From: an uncultured Verrucomicrobiota bacterium | GTDB taxonomy: Bacteria > Verrucomicrobiota > Verrucomicrobiia > Opitutales > Seribacteraceae | Assembly: GCA_902612125.1 (NCBI GenBank) | Contig: CACMBV010000004.1 | Location: 1 to 64,000, forward strand | Reading direction: 5' to 3' | DNA: 64,000 nucleotides | In this document: positions 5,248-22,275 of the stretch, one piece after another | Position numbering within the stretch: the first letter of the stretch is position 1 | Layout: each line of letters starts with the position of its first letter | Translations under genes and position numbers: made by a program | Notes under the pieces: model-generated | Seen by the model: only the letters and a program-made list of their open reading frames with translations | Told to the model about the DNA's origin: nothing | Database searches by the model: none

Positions 5248-6273
5248 ATGATTAGAATTGGACTTGTTGGACATGGATATTGGGGTCCTAATTTATTAAG
5301 GAACTTCTATGAATGCACTAAAACAGAAGTCAAGATGGTATGTGATTTGAGTCCAAATAATTTAAACAAAGTATTATTAAAATATCCTAAAATTCATATT
5401 ACAGTTGATTATAGCGAGCTTCTGAAAAGTAAAGAAATCGATGTTATCGTTATAGCAACCCCAGTAGGAACACATTACGAGTTAGCTTTAAATGCTTTAA
5501 AATCTGGCAAACATGTCTTTGTGGAAAAACCGTTAACTAATTCTTCGGATCAGGCCACAAGTCTTATAAATGAAGCCGAAAATCGTAATTTGATTTTGCA
5601 TGTAGATCATACATTTATATACACAACTGCTGTTCGTAAAATCTACGAATTAGTCACAAATGGTACTATAGGAGAATTGTTTTATTACGACTCAGTAAGG
5701 GTCAATCTCGGACTATTCCAGCACGATGTAAATGTTATATGGGACTTAGCTGTCCATGATCTATCAATTATGAACTATTTAATTCAGGAGAAACCAATTG
5801 CGGTCTCAGCCACCGGCATGAGCCATTTATCTGGGAATCCTGAAAATACCGCATACTTGACATTGCACTTTAATAGCTCCACGATTGCACACATTCATGT
5901 TAATTGGCTATCTCCTGTAAAAATTAGGCAAACATTACTTAGCGGAAGCAAGAAGATGCTAGTTTACAATGATTTAGAACCCATTGAAAAAATCAAAGTT
6001 TATGATTCTGGCGTCAATACTGAAACCAACCCTAATCATCGGTATGAAATGCTTGTAGGTTACAGAACTGGTGATGTTTGGTCACCCAATATTCGAGGTA
6101 CAGAAGCACTTCATGACGAAATTGAGCATTTTGTTGCATGTGTGGAAGAGGAGAAATCTACGCTTACTGATGGACTTGCTGGACTTGCAGTCGTCAAGAC
6201 ATCGGAAGCAGCTATTAAATCAATTTCATTGAGAGGCAGACCTGTAGATATAGAAACCCTCGAAGTCATTTAA
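5248..6273 (+). CDS. Gfo/Idh/MocA family sugar-nucleotide dehydrogenase (WbpB/WlbA-like)
   Basis: A 341-residue oxidoreductase with an N-terminal Rossmann motif GLVGHGYWGPN (residues 5-15) and the family's EKPL signature in HVFVEKPLTNS (Lys near 97). The C-terminal half is the alpha/beta substrate domain. WbpB-type members oxidise C3 of UDP-GlcNAcA with NAD. The presence of the acetyltransferase and aminotransferase just upstream makes this reaction the best guess. The 6-dehydrogenase (WbpA) that makes the uronate and a 2-epimerase (WbpI) are not in this window and would have to be elsewhere. Confidence 0.88.
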   Translation: MIRIGLVGHGYWGPNLLRNFYECTKTEVKMVCDLSPNNLNKVLLKYPKIHITVDYSELLKSKEIDVIVIATPVGTHYELALNALKSGKHVFVEKPLTNSSDQATSLINEAENRNLILHVDHTFIYTTAVRKIYELVTNGTIGELFYYDSVRVNLGLFQHDVNVIWDLAVHDLSIMNYLIQEKPIAVSATGMSHLSGNPENTAYLTLHFNSSTIAHIHVNWLSPVKIRQTLLSGSKKMLVYNDLEPIEKIKVYDSGVNTETNPNHRYEMLVGYRTGDVWSPNIRGTEALHDEIEHFVACVEEEKSTLTDGLAGLAVVKTSEAAIKSISLRGRPVDIETLEVI

Positions 6274-6293
6274 TATTCAAAATAATTCTTTAA

Positions 6294-7286
6294 ATCATCA
6301 AATCTAAATTATTCAACTCTTCGATTCTCGTAACAGGTGGAGCAGGTCTAATTGGTTCGCATACAATCGATCAGCTATTAGTTCATTCTCCAAATCGAAT
6401 TGTAGTAATTGACAATTTCAGTAGAGGAAAAATTAAAAATCTTGAAAGAGCTTTTAAGAGCAAGAAGTTAGAAATTATTGATGGAGACATAACAAATAAA
6501 GAATTAATCTTTAATGTAACAAAAAATATAGATTTCTTATTTCACTTTGCGGCAATTAGAATTACTCAATGTGCTGAGGAACCTCGGCTTGCTCACGATG
6601 TTTTAGCAACTGGGACGCTTAATCTTCTCGAAGCAGCGGTAAAGAATAAAATCAAAAAAATTATATGTGCTTCATCAGCTTCCATTTACGGACTTGCAGA
6701 TAATTTTCCCACAAAGGAACACCAACACCCATACAATAATCGCACACTCTATGGTGCAATTAAATGTTATAATGAGGGATTACTACGTTCTTACTGCGAC
6801 ATGTACGATCTTAAATATGTAGTTCTTAGGTATTTTAATGTCTACGGTCCCCGTATGGACATGCACGGAGCATATACAGAAGTGATGATAAGGTGGATGG
6901 AAAAACTTTACCAAAATGAAGTGCCAATCATTTTTGGGGATGGTACTGACACAATGGATTTTGTTCATGTTGAGGACATTGCAAAAGCAAACATATTAGC
7001 TCTACTTTCAAATATTTCAGATATAGCTATCAATATTGGTACAGGTGTTGAAACAAGTTTAAACGAACTTGCCAGTTTTTTAATTGATGCATTCGGTCAA
7101 AATGCAAATCCTAAATATGCTTCCGCTCGTAAAGTTAATCCAGTATCAAAAAGAATAGCAGATACAAGTATGGCAAAAAAATATCTAGGATTTAGTGCTG
7201 AATTTGACATAAAAGAAGGGTTAAAATCACTTGTTGATTGGTGGATTAATGCGAGGGAGCAGATGGATGCACACAAAACTGATTAA
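6294..7286 (+). CDS. NAD-dependent sugar-nucleotide epimerase/dehydratase; no canonical start codon
   Basis: An extended short-chain dehydrogenase. The NAD motif TGGAGLIG is encoded at 6333-6356, the catalytic Tyr-x-x-x-Lys as LYGAIKCYNEG near 6750-6782, and the typical LRYFNVYGPRMD follows. The frame is open only from 6294 (after a TAA at 6291). Between there and the NAD motif the only candidate initiators are ATC (6294, 6297) and ATT (6324); there is no ATG, GTG, TTG or CTG. The first ATG, at 6801, would delete the whole NAD site, so a call starting there is wrong. The full frame gives about 330 residues, normal for a UDP-glucose/UDP-GlcNAc 4-epimerase-type enzyme. The precise substrate is unknown. 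Confidence 0.8.
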   Translation: MIKSKLFNSSILVTGGAGLIGSHTIDQLLVHSPNRIVVIDNFSRGKIKNLERAFKSKKLEIIDGDITNKELIFNVTKNIDFLFHFAAIRITQCAEEPRLAHDVLATGTLNLLEAAVKNKIKKIICASSASIYGLADNFPTKEHQHPYNNRTLYGAIKCYNEGLLRSYCDMYDLKYVVLRYFNVYGPRMDMHGAYTEVMIRWMEKLYQNEVPIIFGDGTDTMDFVHVEDIAKANILALLSNISDIAINIGTGVETSLNELASFLIDAFGQNANPKYASARKVNPVSKRIADTSMAKKYLGFSAEFDIKEGLKSLVDWWINAREQMDAHKTD

Positions 7287-13283: not shown

Positions 13284-15072
13284 AACCAAACTGTTCAATA
13301 TATTAAATAATTCAAAACTTGCAGTATTAACATTGTTCGCTTTACCGATTCTATCTTGTGTTTTAGCGATTGGAATCATTCCTATGGTAGTCGATTCAGA
13401 TAATGGATTGATGATGAGTGCATTAGAGCAATATCACTCAAAGCAAGTATCTCAAATTCACACGTTTACAGGTGTCTCTCCATACGATTTATCTAAAAAT
13501 GTAAATGTATGGATAAGTTGGTATACTCCAGGAGTTAGTCTATTATTTTACCCCGCTAAATACTTACCTTTTTCATTAGGTGATTCAATCCGACTTTTAG
13601 GGTTGTTTTATTACCTGTTAGGTCTTTGGGGCTGGTTCAGCACTTGGAAGTACCTTAAAGGGCATGTTTTTAGTCTATGGATGATGGTGTTTACGGGCTT
13701 TGTTTATTATCAACGTATTGGTGGATTACTTTATCTACACGCAGATGTTTTACCATTTTGTATATTTCCATGGCTTTTATTATGGGGATTAAATCTTATA
13801 AATTACTGTCATAAATGTACCGGGATTTCTTTCATGGATTCATTACGATTACATACAAGATCCATCACTTTCGGTTTAAGTTGCGGATTAGTCTATTGGT
13901 TAAAATACTCGGGTTTTATATCGATTGCTGCACTGTTAACAGGCGTATGCTTGTGGATACTTATAAAGTGTAAGAATTTCCCCCTTCTGAAAAGAATATT
14001 TGTCTGCTCATCAATTTCTACTGCTTTATTACCTGTGATTCTATTGAATCTCATAAACTTACATTTTTCAGGAGTTTACAGTCTAGCCGACGAAGCTAAT
14101 ACAGCTGGATTCAATCAAAATACAGTTGGTTTTATTGATCTCTTTTTTTCAATCATTGTTGGCCCAGGATTAAGTCTTTTCAATTTCCACAGCATTGCAC
14201 AACATTTCTTTTGTTTCATGGATCCCACCTTTCCTTTTTTAAAAATATTTGGTGATTTTTCGGATCGAATCGTATGGATGCCATTATTAGCAATTCCTCT
14301 AATTTCTTTTTTTTATTATTTATTTTGGAAGTCTAAACGCCATTTTTCCACTGAAACTTACTGGTTAGCCACGAACATTTGGATTATCACCTTTTCATTG
14401 ATGGGTTTTATGAGTTGGTACATTGGTTGCCATTACATAAATATGGGGGTACGCTACACATCTGTTTTCATTTTCTTGTTTCATTTAATAATTACGGAAA
14501 CACTCATAAATGAATTTCATCACTACAAAAAATACACAAAAGTATTTGTTTTCTTTTGCGTTTTTATATTTGTTATCACACCTGGAATTTTTGAATCATT
14601 CAGATCATTTCGAGGAATGTTCTTTGATTCAAAATTAGTTACATACAAATCATCAGAAAAGAATTTATACTTTCATTATCTTGCTAAAGATGACTTAAAA
14701 GAAGTAATTGAAGAAGTTGATAGTCTTACTTTAAGACCTAACGATATTGTTGCTGTAGCTCATAATTTGGAGACTACAAATTTCGGAGCCTGGATTGAAT
14801 TTTCAAATAAAAGAATTCTTCCGCTTTGTTCAGTTGATGATGCACTCAAGCATGTTTACCATGGCAAAGCCAATTGCTTTAGCAAAAGTCCTTTTAATTC
14901 TTCTGAAAATTTACGGGTAATATTAGTCCTCTCTCAAGAATTTCTGAATGTAGAGGATGATATGCTACAGATAATCAAAACTCGATTTCCTCAAGCAACT
15001 GAATGGCATACCACGCAAAAGAGTTTGAAAAAAAACCGTGCACAAATTTGGTATACAGATCTAAAGGTTTAG
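13273..15072 (+). CDS. Large polytopic membrane protein, possible GT39/GT87-like glycosyltransferase
   Basis: A 599-residue protein. The N-terminus has one helix (about 17-40) and then a periplasmic-type loop with VVDSDNGLMMSALEQYH and WISWYTPGVSLLFYPAKYL, followed by about ten further helices to residue 445 and a soluble tail of about 150 residues. The first loop carrying an Asp near the end of helix 1 and a WYTPG element resembles polyprenyl-phosphate-sugar-dependent GT-C enzymes. This is inference; no signature strong enough to name a family is seen. The setting between methyltransferases and an aminotransferase supports a role in building or decorating the glycan. Confidence 0.6.
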   Translation: MVTKTKLFNILNNSKLAVLTLFALPILSCVLAIGIIPMVVDSDNGLMMSALEQYHSKQVSQIHTFTGVSPYDLSKNVNVWISWYTPGVSLLFYPAKYLPFSLGDSIRLLGLFYYLLGLWGWFSTWKYLKGHVFSLWMMVFTGFVYYQRIGGLLYLHADVLPFCIFPWLLLWGLNLINYCHKCTGISFMDSLRLHTRSITFGLSCGLVYWLKYSGFISIAALLTGVCLWILIKCKNFPLLKRIFVCSSISTALLPVILLNLINLHFSGVYSLADEANTAGFNQNTVGFIDLFFSIIVGPGLSLFNFHSIAQHFFCFMDPTFPFLKIFGDFSDRIVWMPLLAIPLISFFYYLFWKSKRHFSTETYWLATNIWIITFSLMGFMSWYIGCHYINMGVRYTSVFIFLFHLIITETLINEFHHYKKYTKVFVFFCVFIFVITPGIFESFRSFRGMFFDSKLVTYKSSEKNLYFHYLAKDDLKEVIEEVDSLTLRPNDIVAVAHNLETTNFGAWIEFSNKRILPLCSVDDALKHVYHGKANCFSKSPFNSSENLRVILVLSQEFLNVEDDMLQIIKTRFPQATEWHTTQKSLKKNRAQIWYTDLKV

Positions 15073-15082
15073 ATTTCACAAT

Positions 15083-16384
15083 ATAAAATACTTCGACTCA
15101 AATTTAATAGCTAGGAATAGACCGCTACCTCGGTTTAGGATTTATACAAATTTTAGAACCTACCTAATTGGGCTCAAAGGATTATTTAAAATAAAACACT
15201 TTAACAGCGACAGAGTAGGAATTCTTGAAAAAGAAATCAGCCATTATGTTGGTGCAAAGTATTGTATTGCAATGCCTCAAGCAAGGGTCGGTATATACTT
15301 TGCAATTAAAAATATTGTTGGTAAAAAAAGAAAAATTCTTCTTTCCCCTTACACAATACACGATGTTGTTAACATGGTTTTATGTGCAGGTGGAATACCT
15401 GAGTTCATAGAACTTGAAAGCACAACATGTAATTTAGATCCAAATAAAGCAATTGAACAAATTGATGAAGAAACTGCAGCCGTAATGGTTACTCATCTTC
15501 ACGGATTTGGAGTAGATTTAAATAAATTGAAGACAATATGTTGTTCCAAGGGAATTCCTCTAATCGAAGACGCAGCACAAGCATTTGGAACCATAGTAAA
15601 TGGTTCACATGTAGGAACTATTGGAGATATAGGAATATACAGTTTTGGTATGTATAAAAACCTAAACTCTTTTCAGGGAGGAATGTTGGTCACTAAACAT
15701 AAAGAAATTTATGAAAAGATTAAGAACGATATTTGCGATCTTGCTGTTTTGGATAACTTCTCATACTTGAAAAAAGTTCTGAACGCATTTGTTACTGACT
15801 TAGTAACATTTCCACTATTCTTCAAGCACTTCACCTATAAAATCTTTCGCTTTGGACACTTGAAACGTGTAGAATTTTTAAATAAGCGTGTAAGAGTTGA
15901 AGATAACCCTCGTAAAAAAGAGAATATACCAAACTCGTACCTGAAAGGTATGAATAACATTCAAGCAGAGATTATTCTGAATAATTTAAAGTATGTAAAA
16001 AATAATAACAAAAAAAGGATTGATTTTGCAAAGCTGTATTTCAACAAACTAAAGAAAATACAACACATTCAAATTGCACCTTTTCATCGAGACTTTAAAC
16101 ACACATACTCTTACTACACCATACAGTATGACAAGAGAGATGATTTAGTTGATTATTTAATGTTGAATGGTTGTGACCTAGCTATTCAACATATCAAAAA
16201 CTGTGCAGACTTAGAATGCTTCAAGGACTACAGGAAAAGACTACCAATTGCTAGATCAGTGGCAAGAAAGACTATTCTATTACCATGTTACTCTCGTTAT
16301 AGCGAAACTGATATAAAAAGGAATGTATTTTACATAGAAAAATACTTTAAGGAACATAAAAAAAAGATTAGCAGTTATAGGTAG
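15083..16384 (+). CDS. DegT/DnrJ/EryC1/StrS family aminotransferase; no canonical start codon
   Basis: The frame is open from 15,065 to the TAG at 16,382-16,384. EDAAQAFGT and the lysine segment YSFGMYKNLNSFQGG identify a PLP-dependent sugar aminotransferase. The first ATG, at 15,272, falls inside the conserved core (CIAMPQARVGIY), so about 55 normal N-terminal residues lie upstream. These read as coherent protein (RPLPRFRIYTNFRTYL, then VGILEKEISHYVGAKY), but contain no ATG, GTG, TTG or CTG; ATA at 15,083 or 15,107 is the likeliest initiator. I give 15,083 with low certainty. With the formyltransferase at 18,108 it may make an N-formylated amino sugar. Confidence 0.75.
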   Translation: MKYFDSNLIARNRPLPRFRIYTNFRTYLIGLKGLFKIKHFNSDRVGILEKEISHYVGAKYCIAMPQARVGIYFAIKNIVGKKRKILLSPYTIHDVVNMVLCAGGIPEFIELESTTCNLDPNKAIEQIDEETAAVMVTHLHGFGVDLNKLKTICCSKGIPLIEDAAQAFGTIVNGSHVGTIGDIGIYSFGMYKNLNSFQGGMLVTKHKEIYEKIKNDICDLAVLDNFSYLKKVLNAFVTDLVTFPLFFKHFTYKIFRFGHLKRVEFLNKRVRVEDNPRKKENIPNSYLKGMNNIQAEIILNNLKYVKNNNKKRIDFAKLYFNKLKKIQHIQIAPFHRDFKHTYSYYTIQYDKRDDLVDYLMLNGCDLAIQHIKNCADLECFKDYRKRLPIARSVARKTILLPCYSRYSETDIKRNVFYIEKYFKEHKKKISSYR

Positions 16385-17987
16385 TGGTCCATCTGGAGTA
16401 GCAACAGCATCAGCACTCCTGAAGGACGGCAACGAGGTGGTTATGTTCGACTTCGGTAACGAAAAAAACGAGGAAGCTGAAAAATTAAAACAAAAGCTCA
16501 AGGCAAATAATTGTGATAATAGCGACTTAGAATCACTAAAACCAAAAATCAGTAGTGATAGTCCATTTAAAATTTCCCTTAATTTTATTAAAGCACTATT
16601 AGGAAAATCGGGCGTTTTAAATTTAACAGACAAGCCAAGTTTTGGATCAAATTATGTATATAAAGATATAGAATGGGGAATACCATTAAAATGTAATGAG
16701 AATATAGCACGTTCTCTAGCAAAATCGGGACTTAGTAATGTATGGGGAGCGACATGTTATCCACTTACTAAAGATGATTACCATAAATGGCCAATATCAA
16801 TGAAAGATATGGACACTCACTACAGATCAGTTAGTAAACTTTTGTCAATAACAGAAGCAAATGATTGTCTAAATACTTTTTATCCGAAGTACAGAGATGA
16901 GAACAGACTCGTTACATTAAATAAGAATAGCGAAATAATATATAAAAAATGGGTTAAGAACAAAGATCTTCTAGTAAAAGAATTTATTTGGGGTGGTAGA
17001 TCTAGATTAGCAGTAAAAACAAAGGAAGAACAAGGTTCAAATAAATGCGTTTATTGCGGACATTGCCTTAGTGGTTGCCCGCATGACGCCATATACAAAT
17101 CAGAATATACAGTAAGTGTTTTAAACAAAAGTGAAAGATTCACATACAAAAGACCATTCTTACTGAATAAATTTTTCGAAAAAAATGATAAAGTAAAGTT
17201 GAGCCTTCTAAATATTGACGAAAATAAAGAATCTAATGAAACTTATGATTCAATATTTCTTTCGACTGGAGTTTTATCAACATTGAGAATAATTGATGAA
17301 TCAATTGATACAGAAAGTAACAATTTTAAGTTATTAGATAATGATTTATACCTTATACCATGTATGAATTTTGAAGGAAGTAAAGAGAGATTAAGTGTAG
17401 ATTTCACATTAAATCAATTAAGTATGAGATTAATCACCGAAGGAACAGCATGTCATATACAGTTATACAATATGAGTAATACAATTATTGACCGTTTTCG
17501 TCCACTCCTAAATATAATCCCAAATTATTTTCAAGAAACTGCACAAAACTATCTACAGAATATATTTATACTTTTTGTTTATTTTCCAAGCGATTACTCA
17601 GCAAATATAAATGCACAAGTATTAAAAGATAAGAATATAAATAAAATTCATTTAACATTTGAAAGAAATAAAAGGAGTAATACTCTAATTAAGCGAGTGT
17701 ATAAAAAGTTACTTAATAACCGTAAACAACTTGGAATTACTCCAATTGGGCCGTACTTTCCAGCAAGTCGAAGTGCAGCGAGCCTTAGTCACTTAAGTGG
17801 AGGAATACCAATGAAAAAGAATCCCAAAAAGTTTGAAACTTCTCTTAATGGCCTTCTACATGGTACTAATAATGTCTACATAACAGATGGTACTTCTATG
17901 CCATTCTTACCTTCTCAAAATTCTACAATGACAATTATGGCAAATGCACATCGGGTAGCAACAATTTACAACAAACAATTATTATAA
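16356..17987 (+). CDS. GMC-family FAD oxidoreductase with ferredoxin-like cysteine motif; ATA start
   Basis: About 543 residues. The N-terminus RLAVIGSGPSGVATA is an FAD dinucleotide motif. The C-terminal part (SHLSGGIPM, then GTNNVYITDGTSMPFLPS and a Thr-rich TMTIMANAHRVA) is that of glucose-methanol-choline oxidoreductases, including a His in the active-site position. In between, near residues 231-242, is CVYCGHCLSGCP, a C-x2-C-x2-C-x3-C-P pattern like a 4Fe-4S site. The usual start would precede the FAD motif; the only initiator there is ATA at 16,356 (a 29-base overlap with the aminotransferase). The GTG at 16,437 would remove the FAD site. Substrate unknown, probably a sugar or lipid-linked alcohol. 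Confidence 0.72.
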   Translation: MKKRLAVIGSGPSGVATASALLKDGNEVVMFDFGNEKNEEAEKLKQKLKANNCDNSDLESLKPKISSDSPFKISLNFIKALLGKSGVLNLTDKPSFGSNYVYKDIEWGIPLKCNENIARSLAKSGLSNVWGATCYPLTKDDYHKWPISMKDMDTHYRSVSKLLSITEANDCLNTFYPKYRDENRLVTLNKNSEIIYKKWVKNKDLLVKEFIWGGRSRLAVKTKEEQGSNKCVYCGHCLSGCPHDAIYKSEYTVSVLNKSERFTYKRPFLLNKFFEKNDKVKLSLLNIDENKESNETYDSIFLSTGVLSTLRIIDESIDTESNNFKLLDNDLYLIPCMNFEGSKERLSVDFTLNQLSMRLITEGTACHIQLYNMSNTIIDRFRPLLNIIPNYFQETAQNYLQNIFILFVYFPSDYSANINAQVLKDKNINKIHLTFERNKRSNTLIKRVYKKLLNNRKQLGITPIGPYFPASRSAASLSHLSGGIPMKKNPKKFETSLNGLLHGTNNVYITDGTSMPFLPSQNSTMTIMANAHRVATIYNKQLL

Positions 17988-20074: not shown

Positions 20075-21244
20075 ATGGAACTATCAATTGTCATTCCATG
20101 TCTTAATGAAGAAGAAACTTTAGCTACGTGCATAAAAAAATGTCTTAGCATCATAAAAGACCAAAATCTGTCTGCCGAGGTTATTATTGCTGATAATGGA
20201 AGTACCGATAACTCACTTTCTATTGCATACAGTCTTGGTGTTGAAATAGTAAAAGTCACTGACAAAGGATACGGTTTTGCTCTTATGGGGGGAATAGATG
20301 CAGCACAGGGAAAATACATCCTTATGGGAGATGCTGATGATAGTTATAATTTTCTCGAAATTCCAAAATTTTTAAATGAAATTAGAAAGGGTTATGATCT
20401 TGTACAGGGTTGTAGGTTACCAACAGGAGGCGGTAAGATAGAAAAGGGTGCGATGCCTTTTTCGCATAAGTATATTGGAAACCCTGCCCTCACAAATCTT
20501 GCGAAATTTTTTTTTAATGTTCCAATTAATGATATTTATTGCGGAATGAGATGCTTTAAAAAAGAAATGTATTTAGATATTCAGCAAAAATGTGGTGGTA
20601 TGGAATTTGCAACTGAAAATATTATAAAAAGTTCTCTTCTTGGGTACAAAATTTCGGAGGTTCCTATAACTCTACACAAAGATGGCAGAATAAATAATGT
20701 ACCACACTTAAGGACTTTTAAGGATGGATGGAGGACTCTTCGTTTTTTTCTCTTATATTGCCCAAAATATCTCTACATGTATCCTGGTTTCTGTTTATTG
20801 CTTATGGGTTTTATCGGTTTTTTATGCGGGTTGTTAAACTTAAACTTTCTAGGAGTAACTCTGGACGCACATACATTAGTTTTTTCTTCACTTTCAGTGA
20901 TTATTGGCTTTCAATCTTTGTTGTTCGGTCTACTGACATACCAGTTTTCTTCGAACGAGGGTCTCTATTTTATAAATGATGTTTTTAAAAAACTTAATAA
21001 ATTTTTTACATTGGAAAAATCTATTTTTATTGCAATTATAGTCATTGCTTTAGGTATATTTTCTCTTGGTTATAGTATTAATAAATGGAGACTATTAAGT
21101 TTTGGTGAGTTTTCGTATTCTGAAAACATGAAGATAATAGTTCCAGGAGTGACTGTTACAGCAATTGGCTTTCAACTAATCATGTACTCATTTTACACTA
21201 ATATTTTAAATATACCTAGAAAAGCAGTTTCAAAACGGTATTGA
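20075..21244 (+). CDS. Family 2 glycosyltransferase with four C-terminal membrane helices (DPM-like)
   Basis: A 389-residue protein. The GT-A part has VIPCLNEEETLATCI, ADNGSTDNS and GDADDSYNF as the metal motif. A conserved IYCGMRCFKKE and MEFATENIIKSSLLGYKISEVPI follow. From about residue 230 on there are four membrane helices in two pairs. Proteins of this shape are widespread in bacterial surface-glycan loci and annotated as dolichol-phosphate-glucose synthase-like. A run of nine T lies at 20,507-20,515. The ATG at 20,075 has no Shine-Dalgarno. Confidence 0.85.
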   Translation: MELSIVIPCLNEEETLATCIKKCLSIIKDQNLSAEVIIADNGSTDNSLSIAYSLGVEIVKVTDKGYGFALMGGIDAAQGKYILMGDADDSYNFLEIPKFLNEIRKGYDLVQGCRLPTGGGKIEKGAMPFSHKYIGNPALTNLAKFFFNVPINDIYCGMRCFKKEMYLDIQQKCGGMEFATENIIKSSLLGYKISEVPITLHKDGRINNVPHLRTFKDGWRTLRFFLLYCPKYLYMYPGFCLLLMGFIGFLCGLLNLNFLGVTLDAHTLVFSSLSVIIGFQSLLFGLLTYQFSSNEGLYFINDVFKKLNKFFTLEKSIFIAIIVIALGIFSLGYSINKWRLLSFGEFSYSENMKIIVPGVTVTAIGFQLIMYSFYTNILNIPRKAVSKRY

Positions 21245-22275
21245 AGAATCAGTCTAAGATATTTATTTTAAGAAATAATGACTTAGGGGATGTTCTCACT
21301 TCAACTCCTCTTTTGTTCAGTATAAAATCTAACAGACCTGATCTTAAAATTTCAATTGGAGTAGGATCATGGGCAACACTACTTTTGCAAAATAATCCTG
21401 ATATAGATGAAGTCATTCACTGCAATGCTCCTTGGCATAATAAACAAAACTGTTTTTATCCTGCAAATTCTCCTAAAACATTCTTAACGGGATTAACTTA
21501 TGTACTCTTCTCTAATGAGTCCAATATAATTACCAAAAATAGATTTACGCATGGAATAGATATTCTCGGAAGCAGGCAAGGATCATGGCTTTTGCGAAGG
21601 GCCAAAATTCGAAACCGATATGGAGTGAAAGGATATGCAGGAGGTTATAAATGGTGCCAAAAATTCATCACTTATAGAAATGATAGGCATGTTATAACCT
21701 CCAGCCTTAAGTTCACGGAATTTTTGGGAATAAATGACTCAACCGAGCCACGCCCGAGAATCTATTTAACCAAAAAAGAAATAATTGAAGGGCAAAGTTT
21801 TTGGTCTAATACAGAGAGTAAAAAACAAAGGTTAGTCATTGCACCAGGAGGAGGTTTCGAGGAAAAATGTTGGGGGAACATCAATTACTCAAAATTAGTA
21901 ACCAAACTATCGCAAGATAACACAAATGAAATTGTAATAGTCGGAGCGAGAGAAGATTCATCTAGAATTACTGTAACAGATTCAACAAAGATTAAAAATT
22001 TGTGCGGGAAGACTAGTTTACGTATGACAGCATCAATAATAAAAAACGCAGATTTAATTATTAACAACTCATCCGTTGCCATGCATTTTGCAGGTGCCTT
22101 CAGGATACCTTCAATTACTCTGTTAGGGAATCATTATGAAAGTGCATCACTTCATCGTAAACAATGGGGATATCCTGAATCTGTGGTTTTAGGAAAAGAG
22201 ACCAGTATTGGCATAGGTCAAATTGCGAAAGTAGATGAAGTCCTGACTAAAGTAAAAGTAATGATGAAATTTTAA
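21241..22275 (+). CDS. Family 9 glycosyltransferase (heptosyltransferase-like)
   Basis: A 344-residue GT-B protein. FILRNNDLGDVLTSTPLLFSI matches the N-terminal acceptor-binding segment of WaaC/WaaF enzymes (with the Asp after Gly-Leu/Gly). The donor domain shows VIAPGGGFEEKCWGNINYSKL, LCGKTSLRMTASII and INNSSVAMHFAGAFRIPSITLLG, the GT9 signatures, though the usual Asp before S-x-x-M-H is Asn here. Start is a TTG sharing bases with the preceding TGA. It implies LPS core or a heptose-like sugar, but some GT9 enzymes use other donors. Confidence 0.85.
   Translation: MKNQSKIFILRNNDLGDVLTSTPLLFSIKSNRPDLKISIGVGSWATLLLQNNPDIDEVIHCNAPWHNKQNCFYPANSPKTFLTGLTYVLFSNESNIITKNRFTHGIDILGSRQGSWLLRRAKIRNRYGVKGYAGGYKWCQKFITYRNDRHVITSSLKFTEFLGINDSTEPRPRIYLTKKEIIEGQSFWSNTESKKQRLVIAPGGGFEEKCWGNINYSKLVTKLSQDNTNEIVIVGAREDSSRITVTDSTKIKNLCGKTSLRMTASIIKNADLIINNSSVAMHFAGAFRIPSITLLGNHYESASLHRKQWGYPESVVLGKETSIGIGQIAKVDEVLTKVKVMMKF

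Follow-up and report, generated by a model that had tools for sequence, protein, structure and literature searches.

A sugar epimerase gene of an uncultured Verrucomicrobiota bacterium as a candidate for AUC initiation, and the recurrence of start-less polysaccharide genes in its genus

The epimerase gene and its putative start

How can an apparently intact enzyme be translated from a reading frame that holds no canonical start codon ahead of its nucleotide-binding site? The question is raised by a sugar epimerase gene in the window, the 64,000-nucleotide stretch of DNA analysed here, with which contig C4 of a draft genome (G000; 2.41 Mb, 84 contigs, 64% complete) begins. The gene belongs to a polysaccharide-biosynthesis locus that occupies bases 1 to about 32,000 of the window. 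A sharp step in G+C is seen along this stretch, with 26-36% GC in the first 20 kb of the locus and mostly about 42% in the housekeeping part past about 32 kb; the start-less genes found in the window are almost confined to its AT-rich part.

The epimerase frame, on the forward strand at 6294-7286 (330 codons plus stop), encodes an NAD-dependent sugar epimerase/dehydratase of the extended SDR type. It is intact over 6294-7283 and is closed on its 5' side by an in-frame TAA at 6291-6293. Ahead of the NAD motif TGGAGLIG (GxxGxxG) at 6333-6356, the only initiators of table 11 are ATC 6294, ATC 6297 and ATT 6324, and no in-frame ATG, GTG, TTG or CTG was found from 6294 until ATG 6801; if NTG makes up 3.9% of codons, as in AT-rich genes here, a run of 169 codons free of it has a probability of about 0.001. 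The TAA, the NAD motif, the three candidate initiators and ATG 6801 had been placed exactly in an earlier, sequence-only reading, and its view that the protein is otherwise intact was borne out as well: the PF01370 match covers profile positions 1-240/240 (174.7 bits, E 2.9e-51), and the catalytic Ser and YxxxK are present as SSASIYG at residue 127 (SSASxYG) and YGAIK at residue 153. The protein falls below the cut-off of every NCBIfam equivalog listed, the best being galE with 162.5 against 262.3 bits, and it therefore appears assignable to the general PF01370 extended SDR family only, with no substrate subfamily such as GalE or LegB.

No frame near the start was found to which a missed indel, as considered in the sequence-only reading, could link this one; an upstream NTG or a frameshift was ruled out, as the nearby NTG codons in other frames (TTG 6229, CTG 6242, GTG 6337) run into stops within 42 bases. 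In the comparison with orthologues that the same reading had proposed for placing the start, relatives from outside the genus (52-59% identity), aligned on the NAD motif without gaps, begin at query residues 1-4, that is at 6294-6303, an interval whose only initiators of table 11 are ATC 6294 and ATC 6297. The closest of them (59% identical) comes from an Acidobacteria MAG; no close orthologue was found inside the genus, the best being about 42% identical. The start is most likely ATC 6297 (6297-6299), rather than ATC 6294, because its next codon is AAA, which in G000 stands second after canonical starts more often than any other codon (15% against a background of 4.5%). The upstream oxidoreductase gene ends at 6273, 23 nt ahead of ATC 6297, and the 20 nt 5' of this codon (tcaaaataattctttaaatc) lack a Shine-Dalgarno (SD) motif.

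Two further start-less genes had been pointed out in this locus, and both were confirmed. The first encodes a DegT/DnrJ/EryC1/StrS aminotransferase (15083-16384, forward strand; PF01041, E 7.5e-55), whose open frame (15065-16381) runs for 69 codons without a canonical start, the first being at 15272; its proposed start is ATA 15083 (ATA AAA), 10 nt past the upstream stop. The second, a GMC-type/ferredoxin-like oxidoreductase (16356-17987, forward strand), has an open frame from 16338 and overlaps the 3' end of the aminotransferase gene with its 5' end. From the proposed start ATA 16356 it reads ATA AAA AAA AGA TTA GCA GTT ATA GGT AGT GGT, and its nucleotide-binding motif (GxGxxG) begins 8 residues past this ATA; GTG 16437, the first canonical codon, comes only after the motif. 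Rhizobium homologues of this oxidoreductase align from residue 7; plasmid homologues of both proteins were too distant (about 25%) to serve as start guides.

Recurrence in the genome and comparison of orthologous starts

The survey took in 856 kb of G000 and 34 congener stretches; in G000, frames were sought whose coding signal reaches well upstream of the first canonical start. About 30 frames with a conserved N-terminus and no canonical start were found, nearly all of them in AT-rich polysaccharide loci. Those of G000 include the three window genes, a GT4 glycosyltransferase (contig C10, 92 codons), an FkbM methyltransferase (C3, 97 codons), a PseF-like cytidylyltransferase and a GT2 glycosyltransferase (C13), and a DHDPS-family gene beside pseF was added through homology. 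Among the polysaccharide regions of congeners, G004 contributed a methyltransferase in which 100 codons pass without a canonical start, together with a glycosyltransferase; in G001, a RmlD homologue has profile position 2 at residue 14 and its first canonical codon at 77; and GT2, GT4, GT9, sulfotransferase and other cases occur in G007, G010, G011, G014 and G021. A xylose-isomerase-like frame of C3 (L068:1591) was set aside as a fragment. The earlier argument that recurrence makes chance error unlikely was thus right, and the pattern extends well past the three genes on which it was based.

The triplets ATT, ATC or ATA (ATH) followed by AAA stand near the frame start in 19 of the 31 curated frames, against 5.1 expected (P<1e-5), when counted in the first 30 codons ahead of the first canonical codon and compared with windows in the same genes. 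In some cases, namely the G014 and G022 methyltransferases and the C13 GT2, the start may instead be CTG. The two methyltransferases are orthologues (L248:7169-8059 in G014; L220 in G022) that both carry CTG at the likely start and have no ATG, GTG or TTG for 55 and 36 codons, respectively.

The controls were eleven E. coli regions with O-antigen clusters, which hold 73 AT-rich frames, and 20 stretches from the order's other families, which hold 41, high-GC loci being excluded because spurious long frames arise there. A crude count of long frames without an early canonical start did not separate the genus from the controls (21/509 vs 4/114, p=0.5). The four raw control matches at the 30-codon threshold proved to be two internal fragments by Pfam (SppA, MBOAT), one gene that PGAP flags as partial and one frame that looks spurious; therefore, curation by profile and homologue was needed. 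After removal of internal fragments the counts were 16/509 and 0/114 (p=0.04), with a curation that was done by the author and was not blind. The frequency of ATH starts outside the genus is poorly bounded by this sample.

The PseF-like gene can be compared between two species. Around the proposed start G000 reads TTT ATT AAA AGG TTA GCA ATA ATT CCA and G014 reads CAA ATT AAA CGA CTT GCT ATA ATT CCT, so that ATT-AAA is kept in both, with the first canonical codon at 24 and 56, respectively. The two proteins are 69% identical, with dN of 0.22, dS of 1.79 and dN/dS of 0.12, and these values point to an ATT start of the G000 gene that is conserved between species under purifying selection.

In other families the initiator itself appears to change within a single alignment column. 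For the FkbM methyltransferase, an alignment read by eye places ATC of G000 in the same column as GTG of G028 and ATG of G031. A glycosyltransferase with the motif FEEEFLGVYPS starts with ATT AAA AAG in G004, GTG AAA AAG in G007 and ATG AAA AAG in a truncated G000 copy. The GT9 gene of the window (21241-22275, forward strand) has a TTG start, as does that of G010; at the corresponding place its other relatives have ATA AAA (G007), ATT AAA (G021) or ATT AAG (G011). For GT4, ATG is found in G004 and G001, ATA AAA in G014, ATT AGA in G007 and ATT AAG in G010; against the ATH reading, the GT4 orthologue of G021 has an ATG four codons past the shared ATT-AAA. Such same-column swaps of ATG, TTG or GTG with ATH would be the expected outcome of an interchangeable set of initiators. 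Taken together, the PseF pair, the recurrence and the swaps are a strong argument against sequencing error or fresh start-loss as a general explanation.

Alternative explanations

The sequence-only reading had left two options for the epimerase: either a rare initiator is used or the start was lost recently. The first is supported and the second disfavoured, on the basis of recurrence in several genomes, one conserved orthologue pair under purifying selection and the lack of other lesions. According to the start-loss explanation, a recent mutation removed the start codon, and the gene, now silent or dying, would resemble the other decayed genes of the polysaccharide loci. ATC, ATA and ATT are indeed one base from ATG, and decayed genes of this kind exist in G000: on C10 (L078:7264-9190; G000:C10:57264-59190), each of the rmlD and rmlB homologues is interrupted by two in-frame stops and altered at conserved sites, and on C3 (L068:1588-2551, minus strand) a glycosyltransferase (MKKKIGFIFEEDYLGSYPS) has been reduced to 106 residues. 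However, with about 1000 coding bases and 3 start bases as targets, random decay should far more often be seen in the coding part, yet the start-less genes of the window show no other damage and its remaining polysaccharide genes are complete. A recent loss also sits badly with a PseF-like gene that has no canonical start in two species at a dS of 1.8 and a dN/dS of 0.12, and with start-less frames in several independent genomes, and we consider it unlikely. As to the decaying genes themselves, the dTDP-rhamnose genes of C10 adjoin intact genes, and the shortened glycosyltransferase of C3 is followed by an N-terminally short xylose-isomerase-like frame, an arrangement that looks like the scar of a deletion or frameshift close to an A8 run.

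Translational coupling alone, in which post-termination ribosomes restart nearby on any codon and ATH is not recognised as such, was judged to be similarly improbable. It draws on the finding that the proposed starts in about half of the 22 best cases lie between 29 nt before and 54 nt after an upstream stop. Nevertheless, the nearest upstream stop found lies 125-400 nt away for the FkbM gene, the G004 methyltransferase, the G011 GT9 and the G010 GT2, which indicates that re-initiation, though it may help, cannot be the whole story; the enrichment of ATH-AAA and the conservation of ATT in PseF also speak for recognition of the codon.

An assembly or base-calling error at the start codons of a metagenome-assembled genome could be invoked from its draft state, yet errors specific to start codons are implausible, and start-less frames turn up again in other species that were assembled independently, as well as in an orthologue pair, so that this explanation is very improbable. 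Slippage or frameshifting that fuses the frame to an upstream gene is hardly credible: the run of eight A at 16358-16365, where the aminotransferase and oxidoreductase frames overlap, is a possible slippage site, but no such run occurs at 6271-6333 or 15060-15083 and no linkable frame lies near 6294.

Proposed initiation, precedents and machinery

We therefore favour initiation at ATH codons, and regard it as probable that the epimerase is a functional gene translated from AUC, one of many polysaccharide genes in the genus that would be initiated at AUU, AUA or AUC. The codon AUC 6297 (AUC AAA; possibly 6294) would be decoded by the ordinary initiator tRNA despite a mismatch at the third position, and translation would start with methionine and at a low level. 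Upstream of the epimerase site the sequence is A/T-rich and SD-less, and its second codon is A-rich, as at its fellow sites; most of the 22 best sites have an A/T-rich upstream region that is SD-less. ATH starts would often be found inside tightly packed operons, with ribosomes arriving from the upstream gene, and expression would probably be low but sufficient. A low yield is also expected from work in vitro, since AUU pairs weakly with the CAU anticodon and IF3 selects against it (PMC10158994). Lineages differ in this respect: in one 5' UTR, AUU, AUA, CUG and AUC starts reached 5-20% of AUG in two clostridia, against 0.1-0.3% in E. coli (PMC9680021).

The phenomenon is of a known kind. The E. 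coli gene infC, encoding IF3, has an established natural AUU start (cited in PMC2268962), which is likewise one base from AUG; however, it is a single self-regulated gene, whereas many unrelated polysaccharide genes are concerned here, and infC of this genus starts with ATG. The gene pncA (BBE22) of Borrelia burgdorferi was experimentally proven to start at AUU (PMC13398362) and shares with the present cases a conserved N-terminus upstream of the first canonical start and a protein that is truncated in databases. It is a single proven gene, in contrast to the recurrent pattern seen in sequences here. In Streptomyces, sigR has a GTC start that is repressed by IF3 (PMC5472188), again a non-canonical start that keeps expression low in an IF3-dependent manner, although the codon is another one, the product is a regulatory protein and the regulation is proven there. 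In a survey of 36 genome groups, Belinky and others described in 2017 that orthologous starts switch among AUG, GUG and UUG, with a change from AUG to AUU in 1 of 61,358 reconstructed ancestral AUG starts (PMC5622118). Start codons switch between orthologues here too, the difference being that ATH takes the start position in several gene families within a single genus. What is new is this recurrence in one genus and its concentration in polysaccharide loci.

Whether the genus as a whole has relaxed start-codon selection, with AUU, AUA and AUC routinely acting as weak initiators for several per cent of its AT-rich polysaccharide genes, is a broader proposition to which we give even odds. If true, a hidden layer of weak translation would be mis-annotated by callers limited to ATG, GTG and TTG, and because common gene callers accept only these codons, N-termini would be shortened or genes missed in many environmental genomes. 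AUH starts have so far been single curiosities such as infC and pncA, and a lineage in which they recur in glycosyltransferase, aminotransferase, epimerase and methyltransferase genes would lend itself naturally to testing how start-codon fidelity evolves.

Among the components of initiation, IF3 was found in 25 of 29 genomes and is intact in the genus by sequence, with infC of the relatives starting at ATG, and loss of IF3 was rejected as the cause; infC of G000 itself was not found in its incomplete assembly. No genus-specific factor that would relax start selection was found. Two traits possibly contribute to relaxed selection, the scarcity of SD-like motifs, which precede only 12% of the confident canonical starts in G000, and the anticodon stem of the initiator tRNA (L102:6963-7039; G000:C3:106963-107039), which has A29-U41 where E. 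coli has G29-C41. The pair 29-41 is contacted by G1338 of 16S rRNA (PMC11497404). A29-U41 is common to all families sampled in the order, and it is therefore at most a predisposition to ATH starts. At the acceptor end, this tRNA carries A1:U72, which was seen only in the genus and in its sister genus g2.
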